IMG/VR virus record: IMGVR_UViG_3300008267_000516
Coordinates: 1 to 20,418 of that record
DNA length: 20,418 bases
Direction: 5' to 3' (one strand)
DNA from: a virus
Made by a program: the position numbers and the translations under genes. How positions within the stretch are numbered: position 1 is the stretch's first letter; each line of letters starts with the position of its first letter. Of this stretch, positions 4,077 through 6,976 are shown in pieces. The notes under the pieces are model-generated. The model ran no database searches and was not told the origin of the DNA. It saw only the letters and a program-made list of their open reading frames with translations.

Positions 4077-4105
4077 TTGACCGTAAAGTAGGCACAAGGT
4101 AGGTT
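4077..4105 (+). promoter_or_regulatory. Candidate rightward promoter
   Basis: TTGACC (4077-4082) and TAGGTT (4100-4105) with a 17-base spacer. The -35 box is close to consensus and the -10 is weaker. A start point about seven bases downstream would fall at about 4112, two bases before the repressor ATG at 4114, implying a leaderless transcript. No convincing Shine-Dalgarno lies at normal spacing before that ATG. Confidence 0.5.
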
Positions 4106-4108
4106 TGT
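4094..4108. promoter_or_regulatory. Operator-like site O2
   Basis: ACAAGGTAGGTTTGT, sharing both five-base arms with the site at 4049-4063. The centre-to-centre distance is 45 bases. It covers the -10 box of the rightward promoter candidate and lies just before the repressor start codon, a position suited to autoregulation. Confidence 0.5.
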
Positions 4109-4113
4109 CGGTT

Positions 4114-4323
4114 ATGAAAAAGCCAACCAGCGAATCTATCGCCCTCCTCCACGCTGTGGACGTATTGGGCGGTCAAACGGCCACGGCCAAGAGGCTAGGC
4201 GTCAGCCAGCAGGCGGTGCAGTATTGGATAAGAAGGGGCAGGGTGCCTGCCCTAAAGGCCATCCCTCTCGAGGTCGCAAGTGGGGTGTCCAGGCAGAAGC
4301 TGCGGCCGGATTTGTACCCATGA
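4114..4323 (+). CDS. YdaS/Cro-type helix-turn-helix repressor
   Basis: 69 aa. The pattern is that of the YdaS/Cro family: a leading helix (ALLHAVDVLGG), then QTATAKRLGVSQQAVQYWIRRG as the helix-turn-helix, then VPALKAIPLEVASGVSRQKLRPDLYP, whose 'RPDLYP' ending is characteristic. These small proteins bind operators as dimers and repress divergent phage promoters. Two matching 15-mers in the upstream region are obvious candidate targets. It is the first gene of the rightward operon; its TGA overlaps the ATG of the primase gene (ATGA at 4320). The start at 4114 is the Met that fits the domain and the promoter; an in-frame alternative codon lies at 4105. It may serve as a Cro-like switch, or as the only regulator of a lytic phage; no second, CI-like repressor is in view. 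Confidence 0.85.
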   Translation: MKKPTSESIALLHAVDVLGGQTATAKRLGVSQQAVQYWIRRGRVPALKAIPLEVASGVSRQKLRPDLYP

Positions 4324-6368
4324 AGCCAGAACTCACCGCCATCGTGCCAGTCGAGCGTATCCTCGAGCTGGCGAAGAAGTACCCCGTATTCCCGTGCAGG
4401 AGAAAAGATGAAACAGACCAAGAAGGGCGCACGCTCAAAGCCAAAAGCCCGCTCACCCGAAACGGATTCAAAGACGCCACGCAAGACGAAGCCCAAATTC
4501 GTCGACTCTGGGCCAGTCACCCTGACGCACTCGTTGGGGTTCCAACCGGCAGCCGCACCGGGCTTGCCGTCATCGACTTCGATACCAGCAAGGCTGGCGC
4601 GGCTGCTCAGGACTGGCTTACAGAAAATCAAGCGGCTCTGGTAAGCACCAAGGTACACCAGACCGGCGGCGGCAGCGGCGGTAGGCATTACCTGTTCTCG
4701 ACACCATCCGGTGTGAAAATTCGCGGCGGCGCGTCGGTTACGCTTGGCAAGGTGCGCCGCGACGGCCTCGACATCCGCGCCGAGGGCGGGTACATCATCT
4801 GGTGGCCGCTGCACTACGGCCAGAGCGGCCCGATGGGCGACATCAAGTCGCTACCGGCGGGGCTGATCGACGAGCGGCGCATGGATCTTGAGCTGCCCGC
4901 GGAACTGGCGGCAAAGCTGCCGCCGAAGCCTGGTACCAGCGGGGACTTCCAGCGCGACCTGCCGCGGATCACTGAGGCGCTGTCGTTCATCGACCCGGCT
5001 GACTACGACCCGTGGCTCATGGTAGGCATGGCGCTGCATTACGCCTCTGGCGGAGCCGATGACGGGCTAGAACTGTGGGACTCCTGGTCATCCGGCGGCA
5101 TCACTGGCGTGCTGCCCGCGTCCTACGCCGGGCGCGCAGACATCGAGTACCGCTGGCAGTCGTTCCACCTGGATCGCGGCGGCGGCGTCACTCTCGGTAG
5201 CCTATTCAATGCCGCCAAGGCAGGCGGTTGGGTGTCCGTGCCAGAGGCGGTGCGGGTTGGGCCACCGAAGCGGGAGGAGCCGCCAATGCAGTACGACGAC
5301 GTGCCAGAGGCGCAGGGGATGATTCGGCACGTTGAGCCAGAGCTGCTGGCGCAAAGTGTGACACCTAGTGGCATAGTCACCGGCCGTCGTCTCATCCTGC
5401 GACCCATTGGCGAGATCGTGACCGAACGGCGCGAGGCGACGTGGTTGATCCACAACGTACTCGAGGCCAATGTGCTGGCCGTGTTGGCCGGGCCTAGAGC
5501 GTCGTTTAAGTCGTTTATCGCGCTTGAGTGGGCTATGCGCATCGCCATGGCGGACAACGCCGTGGTCATCCTGTCGGGCGAGGGTGCCGGTTTGGGCCGT
5601 CGCGCTGAAGCATGGATGCAGGAGCACGGCAAGGGGCGCGACTTAGATGAGCTGCGGCTCATGGCGCTTGAGTCTGTCGCCAACCTAAACGCCGAGGAGG
5701 AGATGTCCATGCTCCAGCAGTCTATTGACGAGGCGGGAGTACGACCGGCGCTTATCATCGTGGATACCTTCAGCAAGTTCAGTGCGGGCCTTGATGAGAA
5801 CTCCAACCAAGAGGTGGCCGAGTATCTCTCTAAGCTCACCATCGGGCTGCGCGAGCGGTACACGGCCACGGTATTGCTCGTGGCGCACAGCGGGCACGGT
5901 GATGCCAAGCGGCCACGAGGCGCCAGCGCGCTGATGGCAAACCCCGACGCCGAGTACATCGTGGAGCGGCCAGACGCGCAGGCCATGGTGGTGTCGGTGA
6001 GCCGTGAGCGGTTTAAGGATACGGCCAGCCTGTCTCCACTTGGATACGAGGCGGTGGAGGTGTCGCTTGGGCGGATGGACAAGTACGGTGAGCCGGTCAA
6101 GTCTCTGGTGATGAGGGAGGCGACGGCGCCGGGTAAGCCGGCGGTAGCTCACTCGCCCCAAGGGAAGGCACAGCGGACGATCCTTGCGGCGCTCAGGGAG
6201 CGCCAGAAGCGGTCTGATACGCCGCTTGTTTGGACGGTCGAGGAGATGCGCCAGGTGGGCCGGGAGTGTGGGGTGCCGCGGCAGTCTGTCCACGATGCGG
6301 TCGAAAAGTTGATGATGTCGCCCTTCCTAAAGGCCAGTGTAGGCGGCAGTATGCTGGGGGAACCGTGA
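4320..6368 (+). CDS. Prim-pol primase fused to RepA-like helicase
   Basis: 682 aa with at least three domains. Residues 10-165 are a bifunctional primase/polymerase (prim-pol, AEP) domain: IDFD at 85-88 supplies acidic metal ligands, GGRHYLF gives H123, and DIRAEGGYIIWWP at 151-163 is the third motif. Residues 213-300 resemble the PriCT linker domain (DYDPWLMVGMALHY, then GGVTLGSLFNAAK). Residues 375-600 are a RecA/RepA-type ATPase: Walker A GPRASFKSF at 391-399 (Phe before Lys, as in many AAA_25 proteins), Walker B LIIVDT at 478-483, H523 and RGASAL. A C-terminal helix-rich tail (about 625-682) may be a winged helix binding DNA. It should prime and unwind at the phage origin. The ATG is set by ATGA overlap with the repressor stop; an upstream in-frame extension to 4224 lies inside the repressor gene. 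Confidence 0.9.
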   Translation: MKPELTAIVPVERILELAKKYPVFPCRRKDETDQEGRTLKAKSPLTRNGFKDATQDEAQIRRLWASHPDALVGVPTGSRTGLAVIDFDTSKAGAAAQDWLTENQAALVSTKVHQTGGGSGGRHYLFSTPSGVKIRGGASVTLGKVRRDGLDIRAEGGYIIWWPLHYGQSGPMGDIKSLPAGLIDERRMDLELPAELAAKLPPKPGTSGDFQRDLPRITEALSFIDPADYDPWLMVGMALHYASGGADDGLELWDSWSSGGITGVLPASYAGRADIEYRWQSFHLDRGGGVTLGSLFNAAKAGGWVSVPEAVRVGPPKREEPPMQYDDVPEAQGMIRHVEPELLAQSVTPSGIVTGRRLILRPIGEIVTERREATWLIHNVLEANVLAVLAGPRASFKSFIALEWAMRIAMADNAVVILSGEGAGLGRRAEAWMQEHGKGRDLDELRLMALESVANLNAEEEMSMLQQSIDEAGVRPALIIVDTFSKFSAGLDENSNQEVAEYLSKLTIGLRERYTATVLLVAHSGHGDAKRPRGASALMANPDAEYIVERPDAQAMVVSVSRERFKDTASLSPLGYEAVEVSLGRMDKYGEPVKSLVMREATAPGKPAVAHSPQGKAQRTILAALRERQKRSDTPLVWTVEEMRQVGRECGVPRQSVHDAVEKLMMSPFLKASVGGSMLGEP

Positions 6369-6481
6369 TGTCCGAAAATGTCCGAAAATGTCCGAACCGG
6401 ACAATTTCGGCGGGTCAATTATGTCCGAAAATGTCCGAGAGTCCTTTAGGACTCGGACATTCGGACATGACCTTCGGTCAT
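6368..6481. repeat. TGTCCGAA direct/inverted repeat cluster with three hairpins
   Basis: ATGTCCGA occurs in direct orientation at 6368, 6378, 6388, 6421 and 6431 (10-base period within each group), and TGTCCG occurs inverted at 6398-6403, 6454-6459 and 6462-6467. These build three structures. At 6382-6410, six-base CCGAAA/TTTCGG and TGTCCG/CGGACA arms are stacked around AAC with one A-A mismatch. At 6421-6468, a 20-pair hairpin has a TTTA loop and two 2-base bulges. At 6467-6481, ATGACC-TTC-GGTCAT is perfect. The cluster starts at the last base of the primase-helicase gene. No T-run follows, so it is not an ordinary terminator. A replication origin or iteron set, or an mRNA control element, is possible. 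Confidence 0.8.
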
Positions 6482-6496
6482 TGGGGTGGAAGGTGA
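6368..6496 (+). CDS. Possible 42-aa peptide within the repeat cluster
   Basis: ATG at 6368 overlaps the primase TGA (TGATG), and the frame runs 42 codons (MSENVRKCPNRTISAGQLCP onward) to TGA 6494-6496. That stop overlaps a GTG at 6493 in the frame of the next gene (GTGA). The overlaps at both ends imitate the coupling seen elsewhere in the genome. However, the peptide is made largely of translated DNA repeats and has no recognisable fold, so it may be only a translational relay or not a gene at all. Confidence 0.3.
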   Translation: MSENVRKCPNRTISAGQLCPKMSESPLGLGHSDMTFGHWGGR

Positions 6497-6705
6497 GATA
6501 CAAGACGGACAAGCCTAAAGGTGTTGCGTTGGCGCAACATGTTGCAGATACGCCACTAGCCAAGAGGATGCTCGAACAGATGGGCAAAGATGACTATCAG
6601 TTGATGAAGACATTTCAACAGCACTTTGGTGCAAGGTTAGTCCACTACGCTGACCAACATGGCGAGGTGGGCAAGCGACCGGGGTGGGCCAATGACGCAG
6701 GGTAA
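6388..6705 (+). CDS. Small hypothetical protein downstream of the repeat cluster
   Basis: Up to 105 aa. The first 30 or so residues are translated repeats (MSEPDNFGGS, then MSENVRE). The rest (VRYKTDKPKGVALAQHVADT, then LAKRMLEQMGKDDYQLMKTF, ending RPGWANDAG) looks like an ordinary small helical protein. Three starts are possible: ATG 6388, ATG 6421, or GTG 6493, which overlaps the stop of the 42-codon frame (GTGA) and gives a 70-aa protein free of repeats. I favour the last on coupling grounds but give the longest open form. Its end overlaps the next gene by 14 bases. Function unknown. Confidence 0.55.
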   Translation: MSEPDNFGGSIMSENVRESFRTRTFGHDLRSLGWKVRYKTDKPKGVALAQHVADTPLAKRMLEQMGKDDYQLMKTFQQHFGARLVHYADQHGEVGKRPGWANDAG

Positions 6706-6976
6706 GCTGAACCTTACCGGGCCGCTGGTCTGGGAGGAGTCCGAGAACTGGGGGAAGACGTCGGCCTGTGGGCGGTTTTCAATCCGGCACCAGACAATCA
6801 ATGGCAAGGAAGAGTTCGTGCTGTGGAGGCGCGGGGCGGACGGTAGGGTCATCCCGAAGCAGCTGGGGGTGTTTGATAACTTCGGTGCCGCGGCAGCAGA
6901 GGCTGACGAGCACAAGTACCGAGACCCTCCGAAGCGGAACGGCATATACGACTGGAGGCCGCGATGGGGCAAGTAA
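6692..6976 (+). CDS. Small hypothetical phage protein
   Basis: 94 aa starting MTQGKLNLTGPLVWEESENW. Predicted strands (CGRFSIRHQTINGKEEFVLW, then RRGADGRVIPKQLGVFDNFG) are followed by an Ala/Glu helix (AAAAEADEHK) and a tail YDWRPRWGK. The layout of strands followed by a helix resembles small phage proteins described only as hypothetical. The start at 6692 is chosen because a G-rich tract precedes it and the upstream in-frame ATG at 6659 lies deeper inside the previous gene. It overlaps both neighbours by 13-14 bases. No function can be given. Confidence 0.65.
   Translation: MTQGKLNLTGPLVWEESENWGKTSACGRFSIRHQTINGKEEFVLWRRGADGRVIPKQLGVFDNFGAAAAEADEHKYRDPPKRNGIYDWRPRWGK

Follow-up and report, generated by a model that had tools for sequence, protein, structure and literature searches.

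Hairpin-nested repeats behind a phage primase-helicase gene as a proposed replication origin

The window, i.e. the whole 20.4-kb stretch of DNA that was analysed, is a fragment of a phage genome that encodes a terminase, a portal protein and other phage head genes. A primase-helicase gene, the proposed initiator, occupies positions 4224–6368 on the plus strand; its open reading frame contains the Pfam domains Prim-Pol, PriCT_2 and AAA_25, and the helicase domain falls in the AAA_25 (RepA-like) family and in no SF3 family. In an AlphaFold2 model, the last 83 residues form a winged helix with a core confidence of about 86–93, and the recognition helix begins at R686 (RQSVHDAVEKLM). A Foldseek search with this model gave only weak matches (best E 0.014), although most of the top ones were winged-helix DNA-binding domains. 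Codons 645–714 (6156–6365, plus strand), assigned from the model and from co-inheritance with the repeats described below, constitute the protein half of a putative specificity cassette. A small Cro/YdaS-like regulator (4105–4323) is located directly 5' of the primase-helicase gene, and small transcriptional regulators are annotated at the equivalent place in several named phages (L283, L285, L286 and L287).

The stop codon of the primase-helicase gene (TGA, 6366–6368) shares its last base with a repeat-and-hairpin element at 6368–6480 that fills the intergenic gap. The next gene is co-directional and lies 13 nt past the element; its likeliest start is GTG at 6494, judging by where the ATG starts of relatives align. 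A scan of the window identified five direct copies of TGTCCGA on the plus strand, at 6369, 6379, 6389, 6422 and 6432, with start-to-start distances of 10, 10, 33 and 10 bases. The first three copies, with their 10-base spacing, span 6369–6395, and the other two (6422–6438) form the 5' arm of a long hairpin, B, the 3' arm of which contains two inverted copies (TCGGACA) at 6453 and 6461 (6453–6467, minus strand). A third inverted copy, at 6398, is imperfect and matches only TGTCCG. Folding and comparison with relatives revealed a decayed inverted copy, TTCGGTCAT, at 6472–6480 on the minus strand, where it closes the fold; this copy is intact as TTCGGACAT in several relatives. TGTCCGA occurs eight times in the window, seven of them within the element, against a chance expectation of 2.4 for the whole window, and eight copies were reached in one of 100 whole-window shuffles. 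The GC content of the element is 48%, compared with 58% for the window. No iteron cluster was found 5' of the primase-helicase gene.

The element folds, as RNA and on either DNA strand, into a single compact three-way junction that consists of an outer helix, formed by regions of about 6368–6376 and 6472–6480, and of hairpins A and B. Hairpin A (about 6382–6410, from the inverted-repeat list and the RNA fold) is made by the direct copy at 6389 and the imperfect inverted copy at 6398. Hairpin B (6422–6468) is lengthened by a GGTCA/TGACC pairing, and its tip (6439–6454), a covarying stem with a TTTA loop, resembles GAGTCC-TTTA-GGACTC. The minimum free energy of the RNA is −57.6 (z −8.1 against shuffles), the DNA fold has a z of about −8.7 for either strand, and none of the shuffles folded equally well. 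The original prediction had described five direct and three inverted copies with a 10-base, iteron-like period, building three hairpins within 114 bases that start on the base where the primase stops, and only scattered single TGTCCG copies elsewhere. The direct copies, the period and the start held, the length comes to about 113 bases, and one other TGTCCGA is present in the window; the inverted copies held in part, two being exact, and the three hairpins are corrected to one junction. An interpretation of the element as coding sequence (an ORF, MSENVRKCPN..., starting from a TGATG overlap) was rejected, since the repeats have a period of 10 and their spacings vary by 1 and 10 bases from one relative to another.

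Tips similar to that of hairpin B, of the form CCT(A/T)(A/T)AGG or CCCTATAGGG, are seen in many families with unrelated repeat words (the window at 6439–6454, L095, L104, L212, L264, L210, L285, L286 and L293). The tip could be a second signal that does not depend on the word, or an easily opened A/T core.

An exact search of viral contigs for two adjacent repeats retrieved 74 loci, and in most of them the cluster is located right behind the same stop codon. A second set of relatives was collected by protein search and hence without selection for repeats. These relatives have the same element built from other words, representing the GGTCAAA, GTACGAA and TGTTGGA classes; each word class has direct copies and the long hairpin B, and there is one main cluster per genome. 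Single-sequence folding recovered the three-way junction for the window and several relatives, and some relatives fold otherwise. When 20 elements from three classes were aligned, 13 of the 21 consensus pairs proved to be retained via changes on both sides. Pairing also continues outside the repeats: read by eye, one class has GGTCA/TGACC as the outer stem of hairpin B, and another has TCCATG/CATGGA, TCTATG/CATAGA or TTTATG/CATAAA. Because of this pairing beyond the repeats and of the two-sided changes, the fold itself, besides the repeat word, seems to be under selection. A DNA-level search for the element in named phages gave no match.

Two of the relatives (L126:3001-5142 and L083:3001-5136) have an in-frame stop in the matched primase range, which may reflect a sequencing error, a frameshift or a broken gene. 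Three records of 35–37 kb (G003, G006 and G008, the records of L116, L099 and L085) have identical 127-base ends, as is expected of circular assemblies.

The repeat word corresponds to the recognition helix of the winged-helix domain. In a comparison of 56 distinct rows, the helix RQSVHDAVE is found with TGTCCGA in 30 of 30 cases, KQSVH(K/R)A with GGTCAAA in 12 of 12 cases, all from a close family, and SKTTAH with GTACGAA in 11 of 11. TGTTGGA is represented by a single phage, L108, the recognition helix of which differs from those of all TGTCCGA proteins by one substitution, Q687H; N685, which immediately precedes the helix, is changed as well, and the domain has seven further differing positions. 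RQSVHD with TGTCCGA and RHSVHD with TGTTGGA hence make up a near-minimal pair. A distant pair of proteins (L135 and L136, about 33% identical) with GGTCAAAA repeats has KQS or KQA at the place of the recognition helix, an agreement that is no more than suggestive.

This match is not explained by shared ancestry alone, as the rest of the protein crosses the motif classes repeatedly. On a tree built from the remaining protein (630 columns), eight changes are needed to account for the four motif classes, and well-supported branches force several of them; the winged-helix tree, which rests on few columns, requires three changes, the minimum. The exchange is visible in the comparison of L100 (GGTCAAA) with L177 (TGTCCGA): their identity is about 88–100% until 426 bases before the stop codon, drops to 46–76% over the stretch that ends about 155 bases behind the stop, and is mostly above 90% again further downstream. 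We then considered all pairs that are at least 88% identical in the helicase region. In ten pairs of different classes (helicase region 89–96%), the last 210 coding bases are 63–65% identical and the elements 61–74%, with downstream identity of 76–94%; in 63 same-class pairs, the respective values are 81–100%, 85–100% and 71–100%, so that only the downstream ranges of the two groups overlap. Well-supported branches account for only about five independent exchanges, so some of the pairs share an event and the sign test by itself reaches no better than p 0.06. The simplest reading, which we consider likely but which is inferred, is a repeated recombinational exchange of one cassette that holds the reader together with its sites. 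As a matched protein–DNA pair is exchanged, the winged-helix domain is inferred to bind the repeats; this evidence is indirect, with no binding assay.

Several replicons with known or putative origins have a similar arrangement. In archaeal plasmid pRN1, a stem-loop origin is located directly downstream of the prim-pol initiator gene ORF904 (PMC4234260). As in the window, prim-pol, helicase and winged helix are combined in one protein, and the structure of the origin is retained while its sequence diverges. In contrast to the element, pRN1 has an SF3 helicase and one stem-loop of roughly 100 bp without a recognised repeat word, and exchange of reader and site is not reported in the parts of PMC4234260 bearing on it. 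The stem-loop and the winged helix are present in the window, but the AAA_25 helicase fails the test of pRN-type membership; by analogy, the system would work like a pRN-type origin without being a member. The SaPI and SCCmec origins are bound by the C-terminal domain of a helicase encoded just upstream (PMC7581432). In the pri-rep-ori modules of SaPI/PICI (PMC6092414; Ubeda et al. 2007 as cited in PMC7581432), the origin with its iterons lies immediately 3' of the initiator gene, and the helicase C-terminal domain recognises the iterons, as proposed here without binding data. The element differs in that a three-way junction holds its copies and no A/T-rich stretch is present, and the window helicase is of the AAA_25/RepA type and fused to Prim-Pol. 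PICI origins are described as an A/T-rich region with a set of iterons on each side (PMC6092414); the element has two groups of copies, but the stretch between them is CGGCGGGTCAATT. For this reason, and because of the terminase, portal and head genes in the window, we do not classify the element as a PICI origin. The putative origin of SCCmec Cch2 (PMC7581432) also has direct repeats behind a helicase gene, bound in vitro by the C-terminal domain, but the primase is separate, the inverted repeats are dispensable for binding and the repeat region is short (23 bp). The RSF1010 RepA/RepB'/RepC system (as summarised in PMC4234260) shares the RepA-type helicase, recognition iterons and priming hairpins (ssi), which are distributed over three proteins and separate sites, whereas the window has one protein and one 113-bp element.

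The experimentally mapped origins of the analogous replicons (pRN1, SaPI, SCCmec and PICI) sit at the same place. The element is likely to be the phage replication origin, read by the phage's own primase-helicase; origin activity is inferred, with no binding or replication experiment. We propose that the C-terminal winged helix, as co-inheritance suggests in the absence of a binding assay, binds the TGTCCGA copies about one helical turn apart. Binding in both orientations would assemble the AAA_25 (RecA-type) helicase and lead to melting or extrusion of the hairpins, the tips of which have a short A/T core. Prim-Pol would then prime the exposed strand and the helicase would launch a fork without DnaA. 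Inherited and exchanged as a specificity cassette, the recognition domain and its repeats may ensure that origins are not cross-read between phages.

Some of the features expected of iteron origins are present. The element has several short direct repeats at about helical spacing (10, 10 and 10 bases in the window), and it adjoins and matches the DNA-binding domain of its own initiator, although the latter is established only indirectly, without a binding assay. An A/T-rich unwinding region is absent inside the element; the 30-mer with the lowest GC content (30%) is found at 6586, inside the next gene. DnaA boxes are present in many, but not all, iteron origins, and self-loading initiators need none. 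The window contains no DnaA box, and a DnaA-dependent origin was rejected on that account; among relatives, four of 62 have a box at most 400 nt away. A perfect DnaA box (TTATCCACA) is observed a short way behind the element, 105–191 bases past the primase stop, in L166, L155 and L118. Cumulative GC skew, a check suggested with the original prediction, was run for eight near-complete relatives (35–37 kb); the minimum is near the element in only two, which gives no help and is not used as support. As for the other original claims, the idea would have failed if relatives did not conserve the architecture, and it passed, the architecture being kept with a changed word. The suggested binding array is strongly supported by co-inheritance with the winged helix, and the suggested origin is supported by analogy.

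The third possibility raised at the outset, an mRNA control element, is less likely. The primase message could end in a structured RNA that acts on stability, attenuation or translation of the next gene and that is perhaps bound by the C-terminal domain. The strong RNA fold, the compensatory changes and the location between co-directional genes, close ahead of the next start codon, are consistent with it. However, one word is common to all helices and changes in all of them at once, although a pure RNA fold has no need of this; the opposite DNA strand folds equally strongly; the reader domain is a winged helix; and neither an Rfam match for the element nor a terminator-like T-run after the stem was found. 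Sites in duplex DNA are favoured by the joint change of the word and its winged-helix reader and by the use of one word across different helices. The asymmetry of G-U wobble pairs, meant to tell RNA from DNA, gives no decision, as the G-T pairs are too few and most of them are due to overlapping repeats. We regard the RNA reading as improbable, but it cannot be excluded by sequence alone. Still less probable is an operator array, through which the primase winged helix would regulate downstream transcription and not the start of replication. Co-inheritance with the winged helix and the position directly ahead of the next gene agree with this, and co-inheritance would likewise arise if the repeats served the domain as an operator or were bound by it as RNA. 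Against it, no promoter-like site was found within 6200–6800, the domain is fused to a primase-helicase, and in pRN1, SaPI and SCCmec the counterparts that have been mapped act as origins.

Two further explanations can be practically ruled out. The array could be bound by the Cro/YdaS-like regulator, a helix-turn-helix protein beside the locus, instead of the primase. However, the helix of this regulator is identical in phages with different words (L100 with GGTCAAA and L168/L177 with TGTCCGA; L149 with TGTCCGA and L169 with GTACGAA) and differs between L100 and L185 despite the same word. Alternatively, the element could be a non-functional palindromic repeat, either self-spreading or driven by slippage, as slippage or gene conversion can keep copies alike. 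This does not agree with the fixed place behind one gene in close relatives, the single main cluster per genome, the covariation and the exchange together with the protein end.

The arrangement recurs, with other words, beyond close relatives. Of 37 chromosomal relatives found by protein search, 10 carry four or more copies of a single 7-mer within 200 bases past the stop codon, a threshold reached by 4 of the 233 other gene ends examined in these loci; the remaining 27 distant relatives have no strong cluster by this simple 7-mer test. Among 12 named phages and plasmids with related helicases, eight have at least five copies, each of its own word: TGAACCA in Alteromonas phage PB15, CGGTACA in Idiomarinaceae phage 1N2-2, GGGGACA in Salicola phage CGphi29, GGCTGGA in Roseobacter phage CRP-406, GCCGCAC in plasmid pKp_Goe_795-4, AAGTGGG in pSTEC1024_3, CGGGACA in a Xanthobacter plasmid, and TGCGGAA in Caenibius plasmid p1 (12 copies in 250 bases). 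These 12 replicons were hand-picked, hence the fraction is not an unbiased estimate, and the 7-mer scan is simple. The commonest repeat spacing across families is 9–11 bases.

TGTCCG-like clusters were also observed at L058:3076-3396 and L015:1910-2230, with no primase-helicase found beside them, and no replication gene was identified alongside the TGTCCGA clusters in other contexts (L058/L060, L015, L010 and L006). Two or three close copies of TGTCCGAAA occur at prophage ends, near locus position 620–640 (L017, L021, L028, L032, L066 and others), and adjoin the end of an integrase gene in L017 and L021, where the locus shows one. These copies could be arm-type or attachment sites and seem to have no connection with the primase element.

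The general idea is already known: the pRN1 authors proposed, for phage BIP-1, assembly of proteins of this kind on a downstream stem-loop (PMC4234260). The word classes, the helix match and the cassette exchange were not found in the open-access literature searched, which is no proof that they are undescribed, and a search of that literature for the repeat word returned nothing relevant. A bolder reading, toward which we lean by a small margin when all of its parts are taken jointly, is that of a widespread undescribed class of origins. These would consist of hairpin-nested iterons placed directly behind the genes of RepA/AAA_25-type initiators, many of them Prim-Pol fusions, and would occur in phages, phage-plasmids and chromosomal elements. 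The word would be free, the spacing, the fold and a CCT(A/T)(A/T)AGG-like tip would be kept, and the winged helix and the origin would be exchanged as a cassette. Most tailed-phage origins are unmapped; if the proposed origin is correct, sequence alone would reveal the origin and the initiator specificity in many phages and phage-plasmids. The swaps found in nature would represent ready-made domain-exchange experiments, and the pairs of recognition helix and repeat would provide a first table from which to work out a winged-helix recognition code.
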